DNA of 64,000 nucleotides. Origin: a virus. The stretch spans positions 248,001-312,000 of IMG/VR virus record IMGVR_UViG_3300043418_000114. One strand, written 5' to 3'. Under the pieces are notes generated by a model. The model was given only the letters and a program-made list of their open reading frames with translations, did not search any database and had not been told where the DNA came from. The position numbers were made by a program, and so were the translations under genes. Shown piece after piece: positions 3,095 through 51,172 of the stretch (positions within the stretch are counted from its first letter, which is position 1; each line of letters opens with the position of its first letter).

Positions 3095-4032
3095 CATTAG
3101 AACCTACTGTTTGGTATGCTGGTCGCAACAACTATAAGAAGCATACGTATGAACCTGACTACTTTGGGCCAAAGATGGGAAGATTCACTACTGAGTTACT
3201 TGATGTTGAGACCAGAGACTTAACCAATATCCATGATATCATCGCTGATGACTTAGGAATAAGACAAACCAAAACTGTCGAGGTCTTATTCAGTGGCGGT
3301 ATGGATAGCGAATGTGTAATTCGCAGTTGCCTACACAGTAAGATTCCAGTTCGTGCATTGACTGCTAGATTCATGGTTCGTGGCTATCCAGTCAATACAC
3401 ATGACTTGTATTACGCTGAGAAATTTTGCAGAGAACACAACGTAGAGCAAGTGTTTGTTGACTTGGATGCAGTTACTTTCTTTGAGAGTGGCAAGTTCGC
3501 TGATTATATTGTGCCTTACAACATTTGGTATCCGCATGTCGCAGTACACTTTTGGATATTCGAACAAGCTACTGGATTCCCTGTATTAGGTGGAGAGTAT
3601 AGTTGGCCATGGGCGACTGAAAAGATTATAAGCCCTCATAGAATTCCATTCATGTCATACGATAGATTCATGCATGACCGAGGTATACACGGGATTGGCA
3701 GTATGCTAGGCAATAGTCTAGAAAGTAACTGTTTATTCATTAAGAATCATCTACAAATCGTCCGTAGTGCGCCAGCAGGGTATTACAGAGGAGAAGATGA
3801 TAAGATAACCATACTCAAGCAAGTATTGTACAAGCAAATGGGGTTTGGTGACTTAGAATTGCGTATGAAAAACTACGGATGGGATATGGTAGGCAAAGAC
3901 ATATTTGATTTATGGAAATACTGCGGGGATGTAGTTGATCAATACGGTGAATCCAAGGCAGTCATTAAATGGGGCAATTTTATTGCCGAAGCAATGAATG
4001 GTGCACCAGGAAGTAATGACAGACACATATGA
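3091..4032 (+). CDS. PP-loop ATP pyrophosphatase-like protein
   Basis: A 313-aa protein with LFSGGMDSE at residues 67-74, the SGGxDS pyrophosphate-binding loop of N-type ATP pyrophosphatases (asparagine synthetase, GMP synthetase, QueC, TilS, NadE relatives). Such enzymes adenylate a carboxyl or carbonyl and release PPi, usually before amide or thio transfer. Later segments (LGGEYSWPW, HDRGIHGIGSM) are not diagnostic to me. There is no glutaminase domain, so an activated intermediate would have to meet ammonia or another nucleophile. The gene is in the middle of the operon, overlapping both neighbours by 4 bp. Phage relatives of this family exist, but the substrate here is not predictable from sequence. 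Confidence 0.72.
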   Translation: MTLEPTVWYAGRNNYKKHTYEPDYFGPKMGRFTTELLDVETRDLTNIHDIIADDLGIRQTKTVEVLFSGGMDSECVIRSCLHSKIPVRALTARFMVRGYPVNTHDLYYAEKFCREHNVEQVFVDLDAVTFFESGKFADYIVPYNIWYPHVAVHFWIFEQATGFPVLGGEYSWPWATEKIISPHRIPFMSYDRFMHDRGIHGIGSMLGNSLESNCLFIKNHLQIVRSAPAGYYRGEDDKITILKQVLYKQMGFGDLELRMKNYGWDMVGKDIFDLWKYCGDVVDQYGESKAVIKWGNFIAEAMNGAPGSNDRHI

Positions 4033-15458: not shown

Positions 15459-18400
15459 TTAGAATCGACCCACAGCTACTTCGATGACACCACTAGCGTC
15501 TTTGAAGTTTTCTAGTGATTTGCCGATGATAGTACCAGCTCGTGCCATGTTGTTTGCGATAGCGTGTCCGTTGCCAGCGGCAACTAACAAGTCACCCTTG
15601 TACACTGGACCCAATACTTTACATGGTACACGACCTTGTAGGGCAATATCAGCTACATACTCGGCTTCTAGTGCGCTATTCATTGTATATGCGGCATCAG
15701 TTGTTACAACACCAGCGACACGGAACGAGTCTGCTTCGGTTGATAGGGTAACTTCATGCTCACCACCAAACACTAGGACTGTACCAGGCTCATAATTAGC
15801 GTCAGCAACATACTTTTCTGACAAGTCAGCGTATGTAGCGTTCCACTTAGAACCCGCAGTCAATGTCCAGTTACCAGTTAAATAACCAGCAGTAACGTTA
15901 GCGCCTGAAGTCAAGTTGGTTGTTGTTAGTGCGGCATTACCTGAAACAGTTGTTGTACCCGAAACAGTCAAACTAGTTAATGTACCAACTGACGTAATGT
16001 TAGGTTGTGCGGCAGTCGAAACAGTGGCCGCATAACTTGATGTTGGGACACTTAATGTACCTGTTACGTTAGCACCAGGGATACCTGTCAAGCCAGTTGC
16101 TGGACCATAGAATGTTGAGATGACGTTGCCAGCGTTGACGTTACCAGTAACACTCAATGATGATAGTGTGCCAACTGACGTAATGTTAGGCTGTGCCGCC
16201 GTTGTTACAGTTGCCGCTGTTCCACTTACTGAGCCTGTGATTGTGGTTGTGACTGACAGACCTGATAGCGTACCTAAAGATGTAATATTAGGCTGAGCAG
16301 ATGTTGTGATCGTACCAGTTAGTAAAGTACCAGTGACGTTGCCACCAGTGATATTGCCAGTTGCAGAAACAACACCACCTGTTACAACGTTGCCGAATGT
16401 ACCATTCCCAGTTGCACTTACAGTAGATGCGATGACTGCCGCTGTGCCAATATTGCCAATGTTTGCATTACCAGATACTGACAATGAACTTAGGGTACCT
16501 AAACTCGTGATATTAGGCTGAGCGGCACTAGTTACAGTACCAGCAACACCTGCAGTAGCTACGTTCAAGTTTGCAACCTGGGTTGTAGATGTTACAACAA
16601 ATGGAGCAGTGCCAGTAGCAATAGAAGAAACATATTGACCAGCAGTGCCAATGTTACCCACGTTAGCATTACCTGAAACACTTAATGAAGTTAACGTGCC
16701 TACTGCTGTCAAATTAGAAGATACAACTGTTGAATTCAATGCAGAGCCACTTAGCGTTCCGGCTGGTGCAACCACAACCGCAGTATTTGCCGCTGTCAAT
16801 TGGCCTTGTTGATTAACAGTGAATGTTGGGATAGCAGTTGAACTACCATAACTTGCGGCAGTGACTGCTGTATTAGATATACTGAACTGTGTGCCAGTTA
16901 ATGTTAATCCTGTACCAGCAGTATAAGTACCAGCGCCAGAGAACTGAGTGAATGTAATTGGTGTAGTACCGACGGTAACTGGGTTAGTATCTGTACAGAC
17001 CCAACCAGTGTTATCGTTAACGGTACCGTCTGCAATGAAGACGAATGCACCTGCAATTTCTTGACCTGGGCTATTGTCAAAGTCAGTTGAACGAGTCAAC
17101 ACAGTGCCACTAGTATACGTGTAAATACCATTCCATACTGTATTCGCTTCATCTTTAACTAGAATACGTGTTCCTGAACTTGCAATGTTGACGCCGTCGA
17201 TTGTTGTATATGAACCAGTTGTGGTCAATGTAGCACCGACACCACCTGTACCGTTGTTATATGTAACAGTACCACCGGATGCTGATGCTAGTGTGCCTGT
17301 TGTACCGGCGACCGCAGATTGTTTAACTGATAGACCTTGTGCAGTTGTATCAACATAGTTCTTTGTAGCAACGTCAGTAGATGCAACGGGTTCTGCCACT
17401 GTAGTGATACGTGCATTGGCAACGTCAACTGTACCTGTGCCAGACGGTACCAACAAGATGCTCTTGTTAGTGCCAATTGCAGAGATTGTTAAGTTACTCG
17501 ATACACTTGATAGTGCGTTAGCTTTTACCGTACCGTTAGCGGTGATGTTTGCATTTGAGTAAATGCTACCATCAGTGCCAATATTGGCAATTTGAACGTT
17601 ACCAACACCATTATTGAAGAATACGAATCCATCTGCCGCGCCTGCACTGAAACGTGCATTGCCAGATGAGTAATCAGCTACTAAGCCGTCTGAAAATGCG
17701 CCGCCATATGTGCTTGTTGATATTAAACCATTAGCGACTGAGATATAACCGCCACCTGTGATGTTGCCGGTGGCACTGATTGCACCGCCGGAATAGATGT
17801 TACCTGCAATACCTACGCCGCCGCCAACGCGCAATGCGCCAGTTGATGTAGAAGTTGAAACTGTTGTCGGTTTGACATAGAATTGATTGCTTGCGTTAAT
17901 GAAACGCATAACTTCATTGTTGGACAAGAAACCGTTAGTAGCAAATACAATATCGTTAGTTGTTCCAGTTGAACCGGTTGCTATGACTAAATTACCGCCT
18001 AATCCAGTTCCAGTTACCGCTTTAGAGAAGATATAACCATCATTCTTACCAGTAATAGTATAATTGGCATCACTGAAATTTGAACCAGTGAAGCCCATGT
18101 CCATCCAGCCAGATATGTCATTCCCGTTATCACTATATGCGATCCAGTCAGCACTACCAGTTGCTGTTTGATTTAACAATGCGCCTTGGATATATTGAGC
18201 GCCAGCGTTTTCTGCAACAATTGTAGGTGAGGTTAGTGCAGTAGTTGTGGCACCATTACCTACATATAAAACACCGCCAATTACACCATTGCCATTTGCA
18301 GTCAGACTGCCATTGGCAATAATATTTCCTCCGATACCTACACCGCCGCCAACACGTAATGCGCCAGTGGCAGATGTAGTTGCCGCGGTTGTTGTCTCGA

Positions 18401-34568: not shown

Positions 34569-35303
34569 ATGGCTAACATTAAAAAGTTATATATTGTATT
34601 GGGAACTGGTGGTTCCAGGAAAGATTTCCTTACAGGATGGTTGGGCAAGTTGCCGTCTTTCATAGACACTAAATGGTATATTGACTTAACTTGTGGAGCC
34701 AGTTATAGCGATGCACATCGACTAAAGATTGTCGATACATCACCCAAACATACATTTGTTCATCTATTGGAAGAAATGGATATTAGATTCAGTGATGATG
34801 CTATATTAAACTTAGCCGTTAATTGTCATGGCATTAATCTAGCAGATAATCTAAAAGGATTATCAAAAAGTCAATATGAAATATTGAATGTAAACGTTAA
34901 TCCCAACACAAATGATACATTCTGGCAAAACTTTGTGAAGAATTTCCTTCACTATAATACTAGTATTGACCAGTTAGATGATTACATGAATCAATCTATT
35001 CTACAATATATACCACAAGTCGGTGACACACAAGAAGAAATAATATCTAATTTCTTCTCCAAAGATAATCCTAATTTTGAATCAAAGATGCTTATATCGA
35101 ACTACAATCAAGATGAAGTTATACAATTTGATTATAACGAGTTATTCGTGAAGTCAGGCAGTAGAATATTGTGTGATAGGCTAAAGCTACATGCACCAGA
35201 CAACGTACATGCATTCTGGGATGCAATGCTACCATTTGCTGATCCTCCTCCTGAAGTGGAATTCTTAGGCAAAGTTTGGAAAAAATCAGACTATATCAAA
35301 TAA
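34569..35303 (+). CDS. P-loop-like protein, 244 aa, function unknown
   Basis: I choose the ATG at 34569 because the open frame upstream of it runs into the divergent gene. The N-terminus KKLYIVLGTGGSRKDFLTGW has the strand-loop-helix pattern of P-loop folds, here with GTGGSRK, reminiscent of the 5'-PSB loop of sulfotransferases. The rest is acidic and aromatic-rich (AFWDAMLPFADPPPEVEFLG). It shares the general pattern but little sequence with the divergent partner. A TAAATATA box lies just upstream. Its stop is followed 3 nt later by a bidirectional terminator. Confidence 0.6.
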   Translation: MANIKKLYIVLGTGGSRKDFLTGWLGKLPSFIDTKWYIDLTCGASYSDAHRLKIVDTSPKHTFVHLLEEMDIRFSDDAILNLAVNCHGINLADNLKGLSKSQYEILNVNVNPNTNDTFWQNFVKNFLHYNTSIDQLDDYMNQSILQYIPQVGDTQEEIISNFFSKDNPNFESKMLISNYNQDEVIQFDYNELFVKSGSRILCDRLKLHAPDNVHAFWDAMLPFADPPPEVEFLGKVWKKSDYIK

Positions 35304-44303: not shown

Positions 44304-45125
44304 ATGAACAACCCACTACGCCAGTATTTCCGCAGACCAGCCCTGTTTATCTCTTTGCCTAGCAAAGGTCAGCACTATCCGGCTGGTGCGATTGAAGTTC
44401 CAGAAAATGGAGAATTTCCAGTCTATCCAATGACTGCTATTGATGAAATTACTGCCAAAACGCCTGATGCACTTTTTAACGGCAGTGCAGTAGCGGAGAT
44501 TATTAGAAGTTGTGTGCCTGCAATCAAAGACCCATGGTCTATTCCAGCTACTGACTTAGATGCCATTTTGATCGGCATTCGTGCCGCATCTACTGGCAGT
44601 GAGATGGACATTGAATCTGTCTGTCCTGCATGTGAAGAAGTCAGTAAGTACGGCGTGAATCTAGTAGGTCTTCTAAACGATATCAAGGGTGATGCATATC
44701 TAGAAACTCTAAAACTAGGTGAACTAGTATTCCACTTTAAGCCACTAAGCTATCGTGAAGTGAATCAAGGCAATCTAGGTCAATTTGAACTCCAACGTGA
44801 AATTGCACAGTTAGAATCAATTGAAGATGACGTAGAGCGCACAAAGAAGTCCAATGAAACCATGAAGAAATTGACGGAAATGAATATTGGATTCATGGCT
44901 AATACTATCTCTAAGATTGATTTGCCAAATGAATCAGTAACTGAAAATGAGTTTATCGTCGAATATCTACACGGCTGTGATCGTGCATCATATGATGCCA
45001 TTCGTACCCAGATCGTAAAGATGCGTGAATCTGTGAACATCAAGCCACTGAAAATCAAATGTGTAGCTTGTAATAACGAATACAATCAACCACTAGCATT
45101 GAATGTAACTGATTTTTTCGTATAA
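44304..45125 (+). CDS. 26: gp26 family baseplate/tail assembly protein
   Basis: A 273-aa protein of the T4_baseplate (gp26) family, as judged from the start PLRQYFRRPALFISLPSKGQ, the VYPMTAIDEI segment and a split zinc ribbon (Cys107, Cys110 in CPAC; Cys253, Cys256 in CVAC). T4 gp26 is a baseplate hub assembly component of 208 aa. Here the gene sits next to the tape-measure-like gene, where tail chaperones are encoded in other phages. It ends LNVTDFFV, and the Phe codons form the sequence T TTT TTC at 45113-45119, the form of a -1 slippery heptamer; a second reading frame opens exactly there. AGGAGA precedes the ATG. Confidence 0.82.
   Translation: MNNPLRQYFRRPALFISLPSKGQHYPAGAIEVPENGEFPVYPMTAIDEITAKTPDALFNGSAVAEIIRSCVPAIKDPWSIPATDLDAILIGIRAASTGSEMDIESVCPACEEVSKYGVNLVGLLNDIKGDAYLETLKLGELVFHFKPLSYREVNQGNLGQFELQREIAQLESIEDDVERTKKSNETMKKLTEMNIGFMANTISKIDLPNESVTENEFIVEYLHGCDRASYDAIRTQIVKMRESVNIKPLKIKCVACNNEYNQPLALNVTDFFV
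45113..45119 (+). promoter_or_regulatory. Putative -1 ribosomal slippery site T TTT TTC
   Basis: In the gp26 frame the codons read GAT TTT TTC GTA TAA, giving the heptamer X XXY YYZ. The -1 frame is blocked by TGA at 45110-45112 and is open from 45113 to 45349. A 7-bp stem (45128-45134 CTTCTAT with 45164-45170 ATAGAAG) begins 8 nt after the heptamer, in the distance range of frameshift stimulators. Confidence 0.65.
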
Positions 45126-45349
45126 GGCTTCTATCTCTACCACCTGAAAAGATCAAGGCATTAATAGAAGGCATGAAAAATGAGTGCAATGACGTTAAGA
45201 AAAACGCACTCAGATTATCTTGGTATATGAGAGGTGGTGTTTCATATGAGGATGTATTGAATATGTCCCAGACGGAGAGAGAAGCCATCGGAGCCATTAT
45301 TGAAGATAACTTAGAAACAACTAAGAAATCTCAGTTGCCATTCTTCTGA
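45119..45349 (+). CDS. -1 frame extension of gp26 (76 aa), or separate small gene
   Basis: The frame encodes LLSLPPEKIKALIEGMKNEC, then ALRLSWYMRGGVSYED, and ends TTKKSQLPFF. The upstream part (LPPEKIKALI) looks genuinely coding but contains no ATG, GTG or TTG before the ATG at 45173. Reading by -1 slippage would join it after Phe272 and give a 348-aa protein. If the ATG at 45173 is used instead the product is 58 aa, with a ribosome-binding site almost touching the start. The arrangement copies the G/GT tail chaperones of lambda. I recall this short protein type in T4-like phages next to gp26. Confidence 0.65.
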   Translation, partial: RIRLLSLPPEKIKALIEGMKNECNDVKKNALRLSWYMRGGVSYEDVLNMSQTEREAIGAIIEDNLETTKKSQLPFF

Positions 45350-45362
45350 TACACAAACAAAT

Positions 45363-45384
45363 ATAGGTACGGAGACGTACCTAT
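45363..45384 (+). terminator. Terminator after the gp26 operon
   Basis: A 9-bp perfect stem (ATAGGTACG with CGTACCTAT) closed by a GAGA tetraloop and followed by T-C-ATTTAT. It lies 14 nt after the stop of the -1 frame gene, so the short plus-strand operon ends here. Confidence 0.8.
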
Positions 45385-45443
45385 TCATTTATCTAAATTA
45401 CCAAATTTCTATTTTGATTTTATTGTTGATTTAACACTTATTA

Positions 45444-45956
45444 CCACTTAGAGATGAACTACGTTCATCTAACAACTCACTTCGTTCGTTGTTAATTTTC
45501 ATTCTTATTAATTCTAAACACTTTTATTAACTTATTTTAACTATCCATCTTTGACATACACTTGCCGCTTTGAAGACGTAGTAGTGCTTCCAGCACTACT
45601 ACAAAAAAAGGTCATTTGCCATGCCCGTCATTCGCATCATTTTTCTCCCGTTTAATTGCCGTCTTTGTGACACTAAACGCTACCGGTTGCTCTGTAAAGT
45701 TTATGGAGCTGTAGTGAGCCTATCAGATTAAACCAATGGGTTCTGACGACTCCGCAACGCACATTCTATAGCTCAAAAATGAAGTCGCTATAGACTTGTT
45801 GAAGGTTCGCTTTGTCGATTGCCTTCTCGGTATGCCGATGAATATTGCTACTCATCTATACTCCAGAATCTGACGGCACAGCCGAACTGTACAGTCTCAA
45901 GGAGGACTCCCAACGGAGCCAACGAATTGTTTATTTTAGATGTTAGATATAAGTGG
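45444..45956 (+). ncRNA. Large structured RNA candidate, about 513 nt
   Basis: No convincing gene lies here, yet long-range complementary segments are strictly nested: CCACTTA 45444-45450 with 45950-45956; ATCTAACA 45467-45474 with 45941-45948; TTCGTTG 45485-45491 with 45920-45926; TGCCGTC 45657-45663 with 45872-45878; and 45704-45718 with 45851-45865 (14 pairs, two single-base bulges, one G-U on the plus strand). Local hairpins add to this: 11 bp at 45578-45602, 8 bp at 45765-45794, GAAGG/CCTTC at 45801-45825. The outer stem is followed by GGTTATTTT on the plus strand. The G-U pair and this U-rich end favour plus. Size and ornate form recall phage RNAs such as GOLLD and ROOL, but I cannot match it to any class. 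Confidence 0.6.
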
Positions 45957-45958
45957 GG

Positions 45959-46483
45959 TTATTTTGACTTGGTGTCGGTTGTTGAATATGTTTTAAGTAT
46001 TTCAGTGTTATGCATAAAGAAACTATCAAATTCCATGATTATCCAGTCTCCGTATTTTTTTGATGTATAATAGACAAAATTATCAGTCTTCCATGTTAGT
46101 TTGCTTTGAACAGCAATGTAACGACCTTTGCGATTAAACTTCATAAACAGAAGATTAACATCGTCAGGGTCAGCTACTTCTAGAAGTTGATCCAGCCAAG
46201 CATCTAATACTTTACATTCCCCTGTAAGTAAAAGATGAAATGGGAAGTCAGCATAGAATTTACATTCAATGTTCATTTTACTGAACGATTCACCAGGAAT
46301 AACATCGCCCTTGAAAGTGCGAATCTGTCCCTCGTGTAGTACTTCTTTGCGTACTTGATTCTTCCCACCCACATAAGCACCAGAACCAGGAGCGCGGATG
46401 AATGATTCACCATATGCCTCTGATAGATATTTTGCGATTTCTCGTTCAAAACCTGAACCTTTTGCTTTCTGTGGACTTGTCAT
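45959..46483 (-). CDS. PD-(D/E)XK nuclease, Holliday-junction-resolvase-like
   Basis: A 174-aa protein with the layout of archaeal Hjc-type resolvases and RecB-like nucleases: GSGFEREIAKYL with Glu13, a basic RAPGSGAY loop at 30-37, GDVI with Asp60, and IECK with Glu73 and Lys75, giving the E...D...ExK metal-binding core. Such enzymes cut branched or recombining DNA. T4 uses gp49 (an endonuclease VII fold) before packaging; no such gene is seen here, so this could fill that role. The family is well supported; the exact substrate is not. Confidence 0.78.
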   Translation of the reverse strand: MTSPQKAKGSGFEREIAKYLSEAYGESFIRAPGSGAYVGGKNQVRKEVLHEGQIRTFKGDVIPGESFSKMNIECKFYADFPFHLLLTGECKVLDAWLDQLLEVADPDDVNLLFMKFNRKGRYIAVQSKLTWKTDNFVYYTSKKYGDWIIMEFDSFFMHNTEILKTYSTTDTKSK

Positions 46484-46518: not shown

Positions 46519-48591
46519 TTATTCTGTCTCGGTAGCTGTGCTGTAGCTAGTGAAACCATTTTCTTTTATGACCTTGAGAACGTTTGGAACACGACCGGCT
46601 AGTTCTTCACGATGTGACACAAGCCAGATTGATTTGTGACGACGACGAGACATATCTTTTAGGATAGCTAGACTGTTTTCAACGCCCATTGTATCTAAGC
46701 CACTGTCGATCAATTCGTCAATGAATAGAGTATTGATAGGAGCGTATAAGTTTTCCCAAACATCACGGAAAGCAAAAGATAAGCCTAGAATCAAACGATT
46801 ACGTTCACCACGTGACAAGTTATCAAAGTCAAGTTCACGACCCAACTCAGTGATTTCAACTTGCAAATCGTTTTTAAATACAACATTGTGTGGCAAGCCA
46901 ATCTTATCAAGATAGTGTGTAAGTCGAGTATTCAGGTAACTCAAGTTCTGGTCAATGATCTTCTTACGAACAAACGAATCTTTACTGACCAACAAATCAA
47001 GCAAGAACTTTTGGTGTTCCATTGTTTTTGTCAATTCATTGATTCTGTCAAACTTTACTTCCTGAAGTGCATGAGACTCCATCTCTGCAATTTGATCTTG
47101 ATAAGGATCAGACTCACTCGCTTTGCTCTCAATCTGTAATAATAATGACGAGACCTTTGTTCGATGCTCAATTGCTTGGGCTTCGGTATCGTAATGAGTA
47201 GATGGACATGGGCCAAGAGTGACGCTAGCCGTATCAAAAAGCTGTTCACTGAATGGGTTATTTTCATTTTCCTTCTCCATGATTTGCTTTTTGATATTTT
47301 CAATCTCGGTAGATTGACGAATAGCTTCGGCTTCTGTCTTGTAATGAGTTGTTGGCTTCTCAATCACAAAGATTTCTTTGGATCGTAGTTCGTTCCACTC
47401 ATTCAATAATCTAGTTGCAGTCTCTTGAGCATCTGATAATAATTTTTTCTTATCTTCTAATACTTTGCCGTGTTGATCGTCATGGAAATGTTGACCACAT
47501 GCATAGCAAGTATGATCTTCCAATGATTGCACTTCTGCAACTAGCTTTTTAACTAGTGCATCTTCCTTGTCGATTTCTTTGGAAAGTCGTGCGATTTCTT
47601 TATCACGATCTGCTAGCTCTTTTGACTTTTGAATATGTTCTGCAAGGTCTTTGTGCGCCTGTAGTTCAGCAGTAAAATCAATATGACTTAACTCATCCAT
47701 TTTAAGTTTGAGTTGATCAATGTCTTTGTCTTGCTTTTGCATCCATGCAGTCTGTCTAGCGATCAATGCATCATATGCCTCTTGTTGTTTCTTTTTCTCG
47801 TTCCAAATAGTTAACTCTTTGTGAGCTAGTAATTCGGTATCGATATCAATTTTAATCAAGTCATCATATGACAGGGCAAGGTGAGATAAATCTTCATCAT
47901 GTTTTTTCAGCCATAGCGTTTGTCTACGCTTGAATGCTTCGATTTGTTCTTTAACTCGCTTGTTAGCTTCTTCGACTGCCTTAACACGGAACTCTTCCTG
48001 TTGAATTTCATCTTTGCTATTGCGAATCATTTCCTTGACAACTTCTGCTTTCTCTGATAGCAAAGTGATGCCCAACAATTGTTCAATGATTTCACGTTGT
48101 TCATTATTCTTAAGTGCCAAGAACGGTTGACTATAGGTATTCAAAACGACTATATGGCGGAACATTTCAGGTGTCATGTTAATAACACGTTCAATTGCCG
48201 CCTGAGTTTCTTTATTTTCGCCTTGCTGGTCTTCTGACGCTTTTTGTTGTTCATCATTCACGTAGAATTTCAACACATTGGGTTTACGTCCACGTTCGAT
48301 TTTGTACTTAGTACCATTGACCATGAATTCAAGTGTAACCATCATTGCTTTGCCGTTTGTACGATTGACAAGGTTATCTTTTCTGATATCATTGATTGGT
48401 ACACCAAAAAGAGCATACGACAGACCTTGAATTAGGGTGGTCTTGCCGGTACCATTACGAGCACCGTCGCCACCTAAGTCTAAGTTCTCGCCTAGAATGA
48501 GTGTTAATTCTTTTTTGTCAAAGTTGACTGCTTGTGTTACTTGCCCAATTGATAGGAAGTTGCGTAAAGTTATGTTTTGTAATGTAATCAT
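46519..48591 (-). CDS. 46: Recombination nuclease subunit gp46 (SbcC/Rad50-like)
   Basis: A 690-aa ABC-type ATPase. Walker A is GARNGTGKTT (residues 43-52), long coiled coils flank a CYACGQ zinc hook in the middle, the signature is LSRGERNRLILGL and Walker B is TLFIDELIDSGLD. With gp47 it forms the nuclease that resects DNA ends for recombination-dependent replication. The length is normal (T4 560 aa; longer coiled coil here). Its start overlaps the oxygenase-like gene by 4 bp. Confidence 0.95.
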   Translation of the reverse strand: MITLQNITLRNFLSIGQVTQAVNFDKKELTLILGENLDLGGDGARNGTGKTTLIQGLSYALFGVPINDIRKDNLVNRTNGKAMMVTLEFMVNGTKYKIERGRKPNVLKFYVNDEQQKASEDQQGENKETQAAIERVINMTPEMFRHIVVLNTYSQPFLALKNNEQREIIEQLLGITLLSEKAEVVKEMIRNSKDEIQQEEFRVKAVEEANKRVKEQIEAFKRRQTLWLKKHDEDLSHLALSYDDLIKIDIDTELLAHKELTIWNEKKKQQEAYDALIARQTAWMQKQDKDIDQLKLKMDELSHIDFTAELQAHKDLAEHIQKSKELADRDKEIARLSKEIDKEDALVKKLVAEVQSLEDHTCYACGQHFHDDQHGKVLEDKKKLLSDAQETATRLLNEWNELRSKEIFVIEKPTTHYKTEAEAIRQSTEIENIKKQIMEKENENNPFSEQLFDTASVTLGPCPSTHYDTEAQAIEHRTKVSSLLLQIESKASESDPYQDQIAEMESHALQEVKFDRINELTKTMEHQKFLLDLLVSKDSFVRKKIIDQNLSYLNTRLTHYLDKIGLPHNVVFKNDLQVEITELGRELDFDNLSRGERNRLILGLSFAFRDVWENLYAPINTLFIDELIDSGLDTMGVENSLAILKDMSRRRHKSIWLVSHREELAGRVPNVLKVIKENGFTSYSTATETE

Positions 48592-49178
48592 AGTTTTTCA
48601 AAATATTCATGTAGCTCTGGGATAAATCTAGCACTGATTATTACCCTAGTGTCTTCCCTCTCGCTGTATGGTCTATGTGGTATAGACACATTGACCCAAG
48701 CAGGAGTTGATGCATCTAATCTATCAATTTCTGTGTATGGCAAATCGTATTTTATCGTTCTTGCGCTGGTCAAGTCTGGATGATCCGCTATGATAGGTGC
48801 ATACTCTATAGTGGCATCGTACCATACAGTATATGTCCCCTCGCAGTTGAACAATGGTATATTCAATCCACATACTCTTTGTTCAGGATCAACGTGATCA
48901 ATATGAATGACTGGAATATTTGATGCTAATTTTGATGCTGTTGCAAGTAATGATATATCCCATCTATCAAAGAATCCAGTACTCTTTATCATGTCAACAT
49001 ATGTTGGAGAATAACTAGTAACTTCTTCCTTCGTCAATGGAATAAATTCCGACATTGGTGTTTGAGTGCCATCAAAACACGCAGGAACATATTTTTCAAC
49101 TAAGGGTTTTAATTCTTGTTGAATTTTTTCTAAATTATTTACTGTAGCTGTTTTGTATGTCCAGGATGGAATGTTCAT
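48588..49178 (-). CDS. 2OG-Fe(II) oxygenase-like protein
   Basis: A 196-aa protein with a jelly-roll-like pattern. VIHIDHVD gives His92-x-Asp94, RVCGLNIPLFNCEG is a strand pair, and VNVSIPHRP gives His168, with Arg178 ten residues later in EDTRVIISARF. This HxD...H...R order is that of Fe(II)/2-oxoglutarate oxygenases, which hydroxylate proteins, nucleic acids or small molecules. It is coupled to both partners of the gp46/gp47 complex by 4-bp overlaps, so it is made together with them. Substrate unknown; the fold assignment is by motif only. Confidence 0.6.
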   Translation of the reverse strand: MNIPSWTYKTATVNNLEKIQQELKPLVEKYVPACFDGTQTPMSEFIPLTKEEVTSYSPTYVDMIKSTGFFDRWDISLLATASKLASNIPVIHIDHVDPEQRVCGLNIPLFNCEGTYTVWYDATIEYAPIIADHPDLTSARTIKYDLPYTEIDRLDASTPAWVNVSIPHRPYSEREDTRVIISARFIPELHEYFEKL

Positions 49179-50191
49179 AAATTGTTATAAATGTCCAGTA
49201 GAATTTTTTTGTCGAATGAGTTAGATTCGATTGCATTGATTTGGTCGATGATAATTTGATCAACTGATTCAAATTTAATGCCGTCACTATTTTGTCCTTG
49301 TTCAATCGCTTCGCCCTTTACTGGAATCAACGACATTTCACGTAGTTTGTGTTCAGGGATTAGAGTCTCACGAATGAAGTTTGCTTCTTCATAACTAATA
49401 TCAATGTCTAGATGTACTCTAACATGTGAATCAATTAGTAGCAATCCTTCTGGATTCTCTAAGATTTCTGACAATTTGTAGACACGATAGATTGGCTGAC
49501 GTGGCCAAGAATAAAACTCTGGCTCTTGGTCCCACGCTAGTATCATCATGCCACGCGCATCATCACCAGCGTCTGCGTAGTTGTGAGGGAAGGCATTGCC
49601 AATGTACCAGATGTTTTTCTGTGCTTGTCGCTTGTGAAAATGACCAGAAAAGACTTTCTCAAACTGTCCAACGTGATCAGTATTTAATTCACCGTGATCT
49701 GGCATTTCTACCATGGCATTCATGTAGAAGTGTGGCAATTCAAAGTGACCAAACAGATACTTGCCAGACATTTTCTGTAATTTTTTGTAATCGTCGGCAA
49801 CTAGCCAAGGCGCAATCGTTACATTACCTTCTTGAAAGAAGTCGTTGATAATCTTGACATTAGGCAAGTGCTTGCCCCACTCAACTGAGTGAATGTCACG
49901 ACGATCACGGTAGTACAAGTCGTGATTGCCTGGAATAAAATAAACAGTTTCAAAACTATTACTCAGCTTCTCCAATGATTGGAGACCAAACTGTAGGGTT
50001 TGAATGTTAATACTAGCACGATGATGATTCCAATCACCTAGAAAAATGCAAGTCTCGCATCCTTCTGATTGTGCTTTCTTAATGAACCAATCGACAAAAT
50101 TGGCACAGTCTTGATTATGTTGCAAACTGTTTGACTTTAATCCAAAATGAATGTCAGTGAAAACAGCGGCTTTCTTAAATAGGTTGCTCAT
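49175..50191 (-). CDS. 47: Recombination nuclease subunit gp47 (SbcD/Mre11-like)
   Basis: A 338-aa metallophosphoesterase with all signature blocks: FTDIHFG (Asp, His), LGDWNHHR, PGNHDLYYRD and SGHFHKRQ. It is the catalytic partner of gp46 and supplies the exonuclease/endonuclease activity on DNA ends. Length matches T4 gp47 (339 aa). The start is a clear ATG; upstream lies the terminator of the gp55 transcript, so the gp47-oxygenase-gp46 operon is transcribed separately or by readthrough. Confidence 0.96.
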   Translation of the reverse strand: MSNLFKKAAVFTDIHFGLKSNSLQHNQDCANFVDWFIKKAQSEGCETCIFLGDWNHHRASINIQTLQFGLQSLEKLSNSFETVYFIPGNHDLYYRDRRDIHSVEWGKHLPNVKIINDFFQEGNVTIAPWLVADDYKKLQKMSGKYLFGHFELPHFYMNAMVEMPDHGELNTDHVGQFEKVFSGHFHKRQAQKNIWYIGNAFPHNYADAGDDARGMMILAWDQEPEFYSWPRQPIYRVYKLSEILENPEGLLLIDSHVRVHLDIDISYEEANFIRETLIPEHKLREMSLIPVKGEAIEQGQNSDGIKFESVDQIIIDQINAIESNSFDKKILLDIYNNL

Positions 50192-50254: not shown

Positions 50255-51172
50255 TTATTCTTCGTAGCTCATTGAGCCACCCATTCCAGCACCTTGTCTA
50301 CTCCAACTTGGATTTAGACCATTCATTTCCAGAATGTCGTCTCGGATGTTTTGATTACGTTTCTCTGTGTTTAAAACGCGGCAGAAGCTATTTGTAATGG
50401 CGGCTGTATAGTAAGCAAAGGGATTGGCCGATTTAGCTTCGTTAAAGCGCAATCCAACGTAGGTAAGTTGAAGAATGGCTGAGTTACGCATCTCGTCGTT
50501 GTATGTGTAGCCACGCCAGTTGAACTTCATGGCATACTTTTCACACATCATGATATACATTCTGGCTAGCTTGTTAGTAACTTGACCATGATCCTTTGAG
50601 AACTCACCTGTCTCTAGATCACCTTTCCAGTGACTCTTGCCTACGCAATAAAATGTATTGTTTGCGTCGATCTTATAGTGTTGGAATGGAGGGAAATTGA
50701 CTTTGACATGAACCATGTCGTCAATCTCTGCTTTGGTTGTGGTATCTTCTAAGTCTGCAAAGATTTCATCTGGATCCGAATCTTCGAATTCGAAAATGTC
50801 TTTTGCGGTCTTCTTTTTAACAGTCTTGCGCGGCTGTTTTGGCGCAACTGGAATGTGGTCCCACGTCATGACACGAAACATTAAATCAGTGACGGGAATT
50901 GATAATGGGTCAGTCGTGCCTTTTGCCAGACCTTGCTCAACGTCCATTCTGGCGGCACGTGTCTCTCTTGCTTCCTGGATAGTTTCGGGCTTTAGTGCGT
51001 ATTCAAATGATTCTTCTAGTGTATTTTGTGGCAAATCAACGATAAAGTCGTAGCGGTGCTGGTCAGGTGCTGAAAATGTGCAGTAAGTTGTTTTGCTTTC
51101 GTGAATTTCTTTCAGGATATCTTTGTTGTTCAGATAATTTACTGGCTTTTTTGGTGTAGGTAATAGGGACAT
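50255..51172 (-). CDS. 55: Late-transcription sigma factor gp55
   Basis: A 305-aa protein whose C-terminal half carries the gp55-type sigma region 2: RMYIMMCEKYAMKFNWRGYT, then EMRNSAILQLTYVGLRFNEA, and NPFAYYTAAITNSFCRVLN. gp55 directs host RNA polymerase to TATAAATA-like late promoters, working with a sliding clamp. It is much longer than T4 gp55 (185 aa) because of an acidic and Lys-rich N-terminal extension (residues 1-180). It lies beside gp47 and gp46 as in T4. GATAAATA boxes before many virion genes here fit its activity. Confidence 0.9.
   Translation of the reverse strand: MSLLPTPKKPVNYLNNKDILKEIHESKTTYCTFSAPDQHRYDFIVDLPQNTLEESFEYALKPETIQEARETRAARMDVEQGLAKGTTDPLSIPVTDLMFRVMTWDHIPVAPKQPRKTVKKKTAKDIFEFEDSDPDEIFADLEDTTTKAEIDDMVHVKVNFPPFQHYKIDANNTFYCVGKSHWKGDLETGEFSKDHGQVTNKLARMYIMMCEKYAMKFNWRGYTYNDEMRNSAILQLTYVGLRFNEAKSANPFAYYTAAITNSFCRVLNTEKRNQNIRDDILEMNGLNPSWSRQGAGMGGSMSYEE

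Follow-up and report, generated by a model that had tools for sequence, protein, structure and literature searches.

The minus strand of a gene-free gap (positions 45350-45958 of the window) almost certainly encodes a structured non-coding RNA, about 500 nt long, whose fold is conserved, as judged from comparison of homologous sequences. The window is the whole 64,000-nt stretch that was analyzed, G000:C1:248001-312000 of a 364,247-bp virus record. Its place in a superfamily linked to the Rfam entry Polynucleobacter-1 (RF01718) is strongly supported. We consider it likely that this minus-strand RNA is produced by read-through of a recombination operon followed by processing, and that it acts in trans, perhaps as a scaffold or decoy. 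The original prediction, made from the letters of the window, of a large, ornate non-coding RNA was right in substance, while the strand, the nesting, the closing stem and the G-U argument that it put forward were wrong. The observation was confirmed in part, and the interpretation given to it was likewise supported in part.

The gap lies between two convergent genes, gB and gC, as originally described. It had also been called the only big gene-free gap; in the whole 364-kb record, leaving aside the tRNA-rich region at 221-241 kb, no other ORF-free gap exceeds 450 nt. gC adjoins the RNA on its 5' side and belongs to a minus-strand operon in the order gp55-like, gp47-like, gp46-like, gC. The PHROGs and Pfam searches gave no family match for gB. 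Open frames in the gap are no longer than in shuffled sequence, the spacing between invariant anchors takes all three residues modulo 3, and no conserved protein frame runs through the region. A small ORF starting from GGAG followed by ATG was rejected, the ATG being present in only 13 of 100 sequences.

Homologues were collected from IMG/VR jumbo phages. A search with gC gave at least 80 loci. gB lay downstream in 77 of the 80 listed, and the gap between the gC match and gB was nearly constant (about 525-598 nt) although gB varies down to 49% identity; three listed loci had about 580 nt extra between gC and gB. The gap DNA aligns end to end on the minus strand, with long invariant blocks and a mean identity of 77%. 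A pattern scan added more diverged members, and a profile then found the RNA in nearly all of the pattern loci (10 were without it). At least 125 unique complete homologues, the window's included, were kept. The gene order gp47-gp46-gC-RNA-gB-baseplate hub was found wherever the flank was long enough. Furthermore, a second gC search found the RNA in all loci but one, whose sequence ends before the site, and no gC-clade locus with downstream sequence lacks the RNA. One significant copy was found in each of seven large records, including that of the window.

Some loci carry additional elements. In L002 and L074, ORFs of 162 and 161 aa whose sequences look GIY-YIG-like by eye are inserted between the RNA and gB, and unrelated ORFs occupy the same site in L013, L096, L196 and L205. 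Six 21-bp tandem repeats lie at the 3' end of gC, just ahead of the RNA, in L209 (6442-6568).

Outside these loci, blastn searches of 50,697 phage and 72,556 plasmid records, with the window RNA and relatives as queries, returned nothing real, and weak AT-rich or short matches were dismissed. A pattern scan of genome contigs gave at least 118 stretches, which were attributed to chance because no locus that was kept matched the RNA profile. A literature search found no description of this RNA.

The minus strand folds at -144.4 kcal/mol, compared with -123.7 kcal/mol in shuffled sequences (z -4.07). Covariation was evaluated with a tree-aware test (G statistic with average-product correction; our own implementation, not R-scape), in which the null was obtained by re-dropping each column's changes on a FastTree tree and the input was 100 sequences of less than 96% identity. 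Eighteen pairs were significant at E<0.05, of which 16 were canonical and lay in helices or the pseudoknot. The significant pairs were located in P4, P6, P7, P9, the last 3' hairpin and the pseudoknot 45778-45782/45637-45641. In a core alignment that was not fitted to any structure (A1), 94.2% of the cells were canonical vs. 30.5-40.8% when the partners were slid by 1-3 columns. Double changes occurred in 36 of its 48 pairs, with 490 double-changed cells against 155 in shuffles, and none of 500 shuffles equaled this. The wider structure including the pseudoknot (A2) was 90.9% paired vs. 30-45% in the slid controls, with double changes in 63 of 86 pairs. P1, P4 and P8a are partly blurred in the alignment, where length variants are misaligned. 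All five pairs of the pseudoknot covary, none being broken in 59 sequences.

The fold begins with a 5' domain (P1; P2 enclosing P3; P4), after which P5 closes over P6, P7 and P8 (Table 1). In the pseudoknot, the P7 loop pairs with a strand located 3' of P9. P10 and two 3' terminal hairpins follow downstream, both of the latter lying beyond a variable linker.

Table 1. Predicted parts of the RNA, flanking genes and standalone copies; positions are those of the window except in the last row
Feature	Position	Strand	Basis
Baseplate hub protein	44304-45125	+	phrog_150, PF12322
gB, 73 aa, conserved convergent gene	45128-45349	+	kept in position at 30-73% identity
Predicted extent of the non-coding RNA	45452-45976	-	conservation and structure, 125 unique homologues; 5' end uncertain
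3' terminal hairpin B (8-bp hairpin of the original prediction)	45452-45470	-	pair 45464-45458 significant; strand-neutral (G-U 7, A-C 6)
3' terminal hairpin A	45471-45493	-	G-U 31 vs. A-C 5
Conserved RNA core P1-P11	45557-45928	-	A2, 90.9% paired vs. 30-45% slid
P11 short hairpin	45564-45576	-	92.7% paired; one-sided changes only (weak)
P10 hairpin (11-bp hairpin of the original prediction)	45579-45601	-	99.8% paired, mostly invariant
Pseudoknot, 3' side	45637-45641	-	combined p 5e-5 for equivalent pairings across eight distant groups
P9 hairpin	45650-45678	-	92.7% paired; double changes in 10/10 pairs
P5 (ACCG/CGGU), closes multi-branch core	45681-45832	-	98% paired
P8 (GUUGC/GCAAC) enclosing P8a hairpin (about 45716-45752) and invariant ACUACAG/UUACAG strand	45686-45758	-	
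P7 hairpin, loop makes pseudoknot	45761-45799	-	99.2% paired; double changes in 10/11 pairs
Pseudoknot, loop side	45778-45782	-	5/5 pairs covary; 100% paired, 59 sequences
P6 hairpin	45801-45826	-	100% paired; double changes in 4/5 outer pairs
P4 hairpin	45836-45856	-	pairs 45852-45841 and 45851-45842 significant, tree-based test
P2 (CUCC/GGAG, nearly invariant) enclosing P3 hairpin (45876-45892)	45861-45904	-	98.7% and 90.8% paired
P1 hairpin	45905-45920	-	alignment A2
gC, PDDEXK_15 endonuclease/RusA-like Holliday junction resolvase	45959-46483	-	PF24608, E 3e-24; phrog_244, E 1e-20
Leader mini-hairpin GAC-ACCAA-GUC	45966-45976	-	127 unique upstream regions compared
gp46-like (SbcC) recombination subunit, in operon of gC	46519-48591	-	phrog_77
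gp47-like (SbcD) recombination subunit	49175-50191	-	phrog_100
gp55-like late sigma factor	50255-51172	-	phrog_12791
Standalone copies in G010 (L499, L502, L503, L504)	34879-35164, 165335-165621, 232703-232990, 310903-311190		

The balance of G-U and A-C appositions favors the minus strand. In an alignment fitted to the model (A3), G-U outnumbered A-C by 158 to 20, a count that leans somewhat towards the minus strand, on which the structure was derived. In the unfitted alignment, the G-U and A-C counts were 84 and 11 in P1, 58 and 9 in P3, 45 and 2 in P4, 132 and 20 in P9, 23 and 3 in the pseudoknot, 31 and 5 in 3' hairpin A, and 7 and 6 in 3' hairpin B. Every variable helix agrees with the minus strand except the last 3' hairpin, which may act on both strands.

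The possibility was considered that the RNA is transcribed from the plus strand, as originally proposed, or that the fold arose by chance. The plus strand folds moderately better than shuffled sequence (z -2.58), its minimum free energy being better than that of all 100 shuffles. However, the stronger fold of the minus strand and the G-U bias speak against a plus-strand RNA, and the covarying helices are incompatible with the nested plus-strand model. The long-range pairs from which that model was built are at chance level, with 67 complementary runs of at least 7 bp vs. 56.7 ± 8.0 in shuffles. The G-U pair 45711/45859, previously cited as diagnostic of the plus strand, lies in a register whose pairs are kept in only 50% of the cells in 59 relatives; together these two results indicate that the nested model reflects chance. 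The outer 7-bp pair (45444-45450/45950-45956) is present in the sequence but is special to this genome, and it is not a closing stem, as the relatives lack that stretch and their RNA begins at or inside the gC stop codon. The local hairpins described at 45578-45602 (11 bp) and about 45453-45469 (8 bp) are present and survive as the conserved P10 and the last 3' hairpin, respectively. We give the plus-strand or chance explanation practically no credence.

The predicted leader of the minus-strand RNA overlaps the 3' end of gC. An 11-nt element of the form GAC-ACCAN-GUC or GAG-ACCAN-CUC lies inside the end of that gene; among 127 unique upstream regions its ends were GAC..GUC in 106 and GAG..CUC in 17, with no mismatched combination. 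The element is repeated after the gC stop codon in the non-coding leader of L212 and before each of four standalone copies in G010, described below, which argues that conservation acts on the nucleic acid in addition to the peptide DTKS/ETNS. Synonymous identity in gC rises to 0.71-0.77 in the last ~25 codons vs. 0.54 overall. The stop codon of gC falls within P1, or in the sequence preceding it, in several relatives. Two other proposals for individual segments were dropped. Anti-Shine-Dalgarno mimicry by CCUCCUU in the 5' domain was rejected, since the CUCC strand pairs with GGAG in nearly all sequences. A conformational switch between ACUACAG and the P10 stem is unsupported; the sequences are complementary, but no covariation was seen by eye.

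More distant relatives were reached with an alignment led by the gC of phage PA5oct, which extended to loci with gC at about half identity. Many of these loci have ORF-free stretches of 300-700 nt right after gC. Three covariance models were employed: R1, from the core of the window clade; R2, from the window clade and the groups found by R1; and R3, from the cores of RF01718-type RNAs only. Their E-values are rough because the calibration was short. R1 matched L443, L444, L445, L454 and L468 and, without filters, also L438, L440 and L442, with E-values of about 1e-9 to 2e-7 for L443, L454, L468, L438, L440 and L442. R2 matched L458 at 5e-8 (positions 3778-3914), immediately 3' of an RF01718 domain (3624-3768). 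L477 (0.013), L476, L474, L465, L460 and L449 were below or near the R2 threshold, yet all lay at the expected place. R3 matched L461 (2e-8), L460 (3e-5), L443 (2e-4) and L454 (3e-4) at the same places, and in L443 it coincided with the R1 match. With cmscan, RF01718 was detected just upstream of the core in L467 (114.9 bits), L477 (105.6), L458 (90) and L447 (61), the cut-off being 37 bits.

The shared architecture was recovered independently. RNAalifold applied to the R3 set, without reference to the window, predicted the same P5[P6,P7,P8] topology: a helix encloses two hairpins plus a third helix, and the 3' strand of this third helix sits immediately beside the closing strand. The P7 loop of eight groups is able to pair with a segment located 14-39 nt into the region downstream, even though the sequences are wholly different (for example CUUGGAUU/AAUCCAAG, CCUCCUAU/AUAGGAGG and UUAGCGU/ACGCUAA; combined p 5e-5 with one member per group). 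Moreover, the gene order gp47-gp46-gC-RNA-gB-hub is common to the groups, most strikingly in L477. Downstream of the RNA, the window clade has a convergent gene, and the groups of L438, L443, L447 and L467 have a co-directional one.

The core directly 3' of the RF01718 domain tests as homologous to the window core with R1, R2 and R3. Homology between the window RNA and the RF01718-bearing RNAs is strongly supported, in four ways; the link is transitive, since R3 gave no direct match to the window clade. Bridging covariance models, positional orthology and the shared pseudoknotted core place the window RNA in a superfamily of about eight phage groups. Polynucleobacter-1 resembles the window RNA in several respects. 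It sits between gC and gB/hub in L477, its 5' hairpin precedes another hairpin that is enclosed by a CCCU/AGGG-type stem, as in P1 and P2/P3 of the window RNA, the P5[P6,P7,P8] core with its P7-loop pseudoknot follows directly 3' of the RF01718 domain, and the models cross-match through the bridging groups. It differs in having an extra three-way junction; the window clade runs P4 straight into P5, with no such junction in A2. The RF01718 model, 141 nt long, covers the 5' domain only and scores nothing in the window clade, and neither the window RNA nor any other part of the window or genome reached its gathering score of 37 bits. The window RNA is therefore a relative of RF01718 and not a member. 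As RF01718 is the 5' domain in some groups, this orphan entry appears to represent a single domain within a larger RNA of phages. Weinberg et al. (2010, PMC2864571) classed Polynucleobacter-1 as probably an RNA with a probable cis-regulatory role and gave its sources as Burkholderiales and fresh water or estuary, whereas here it is found in jumbo-phage genomes, partly as multi-copy standalone units. RF01718 was not found in 369 genomes of a gammaproteobacterial class sample, a result that shows little because the control matched nowhere either.

Of the isolates nearest by gC, SCTP-2, Phosso, PA5oct and Atu_ph07 gave no significant R1 or R3 match, and a weak RF01718-like scrap in Phosso (13 bits), located in a gene-dense stretch, was dropped. 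Sinorhizobium phage Phosso (L339, 2986-4001) and PA5oct (L340, 2478-3992) have about 1-1.5 kb beside gC with no or doubtful tiny genes. These gene-poor stretches matched no RNA model; they may hold further-diverged RNAs.

Scanning the window and eight diverse clade members produced no covariance-model match to group I or II introns, RNase P, tmRNA, GOLLD or ROOL, and a FasX match fell outside the RNA and far below its cut-off. The suggestion that the RNA might be a new class was borne out insofar as it is phage-encoded, about 500 nt long, pseudoknotted, strongly covarying and without an Rfam match; against this, relatives exist, and in other phage clades the 5' domain of the superfamily is RF01718. 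It is neither GOLLD nor ROOL. GOLLD (RF02032) is likewise large, ornate and phage-encoded, but it has no sequence or covariance-model match to the window RNA and lies in a tRNA array, whereas the window RNA is at 293.5 kb, away from the tRNAs (225.7-240.9 kb). A GOLLD RNA (203.5 bits) is encoded separately in the same genome, at G000:C1:227205-227668 on the minus strand (L517:7205-7668), inside an array of ~45 tRNAs, so that the window RNA is present alongside GOLLD and does not represent a variant of it. A tRNA-like match of odd anticodon lies inside this GOLLD. ROOL often lies near tRNA islands. It is large, pseudoknotted and phage-borne like the window RNA, and differs in size and gene neighborhood, with no Rfam match between them. 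GOLLD forms RNA-only nanocages, and cages are known also for ROOL, a large pseudoknotted phage RNA (PMC12286853).

ARAGORN found no tmRNA in the window. The record does contain a permuted (two-piece) tmRNA at G000:C1:361980-362523 on the plus strand (L524:1980-2523; RF04321, 113.7 bits), with the ARAGORN tag ANDSVFALAA, followed by a tRNA with a CUA anticodon near the record end. The host may be betaproteobacterial, as hinted by the permuted tmRNA and the Burkholderiales link.

Copies of the RNA also occur away from gC. In G009, the genome of L441, an RF01718 RNA lies far from gC, with a predicted near-consensus sigma-70 promoter (TTGACA-17-TATAGT) 48 nt upstream. G010, a 327-kb phage record, has four RF01718-type copies, each in its own ORF-free stretch; over about 1 kb the copies are about 80% identical. 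Each lies behind strong sigma-70-like promoters (predicted as TTGACA-17-TATAAT, 12/12, and TTGACA-17-TACAAT) and arrays of GACACCAAGTC/GAGACCATCTC. No sigma-70 promoter was seen in front of the window copy. The sequence GATAAATA, which recurs upstream of gene starts (window positions 15459, 28000, 31383, 51301, 59934 and others; 43 copies genome-wide), is likely the late promoter of the phage (T4: TATAAATA), and it too is absent in front of the RNA.

The lack of a promoter before the window copy suggests that in this phage the RNA would be made by read-through of the gp55/gp47/gp46/gC operon and then released by processing. Relocated copies in other phages would use their own host-type sigma-70 promoters, so some phages may express the RNA independently, while in others it may come from the end of the recombination operon. 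We infer that it is a stable folded molecule working in trans during infection, where its most probable role would be that of a scaffold or decoy, with a protein of the phage or the host, or a component of the ribosome, as its partner. In this it would be similar in kind to GOLLD and ROOL, but not through common descent. Trans action is favored by the dispersed and relocated copies and by the downstream gene, which differs between clades. A bolder proposal, which we hold tentatively and regard as somewhat doubtful, is that a superfamily spanning at least eight jumbo-phage groups, with a P5-P9 core and RF01718 as one variable 5' domain, makes an undescribed RNA-only or RNA-protein assembly or a catalyst.

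Alternatively, the RNA may be a cis-acting 3'-UTR element of the recombination operon that protects the gC mRNA from exonucleases or controls termination or the levels of gC and gp46. Its constant position directly after gC in the window clade, sometimes overlapping the stop codon, fits such a role, as do the missing promoter, the two terminal hairpins and the unusual synonymous conservation at the end of gC. However, the standalone copies of G009 and G010, relocated or dispersed and provided with their own predicted sigma-70 promoters, favor a trans-acting RNA, and the pseudoknotted core, 340 nt in length and including dozens of unpaired bases that are nearly invariant, far exceeds the needs of a stability cap. 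We judge the 3'-UTR explanation unlikely.

An origin transcript, that is, a primer RNA of the ColE1-RNA-II type or an R-loop origin beside the recombination-replication genes, is less probable still. gp46/47 and the resolvase are nearby, and the G010 copies have tandem promoters and arrays of an 11-bp element; yet cumulative GC skew has no inflection at the RNA and simply tracks coding direction, and the number of copies, four in one genome and one in most, does not suit an origin. Marginally lower again do we rank a ribozyme, whether a derived intron, an RNase P-like RNA or a new self-cleaving class. The multi-branched pseudoknotted core has invariant junction sequences, and its ACAG..AACCG(CC) strand bears what we take to be a superficial likeness to bacterial RNase P RNA. 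No Rfam ribozyme, intron or RNase P model matched the window RNA or the eight diverse clade members at E<=1, however, and the RNA sits between convergent genes, where it interrupts nothing.

To our knowledge, few large structured phage RNAs have been described, GOLLD and ROOL among them. The minus-strand RNA adds a further example, conserved throughout a clade of jumbo phages that are uncultivated, and its fold is defined well enough for mutational testing. The standalone promoter-bearing copies provide a compact unit for laboratory expression. For the orphan Rfam entry Polynucleobacter-1, the analysis supplies a home in phages, the structure at full length and the genomic surroundings. All examined members of the clade retain the RNA, so that infection probably requires it.
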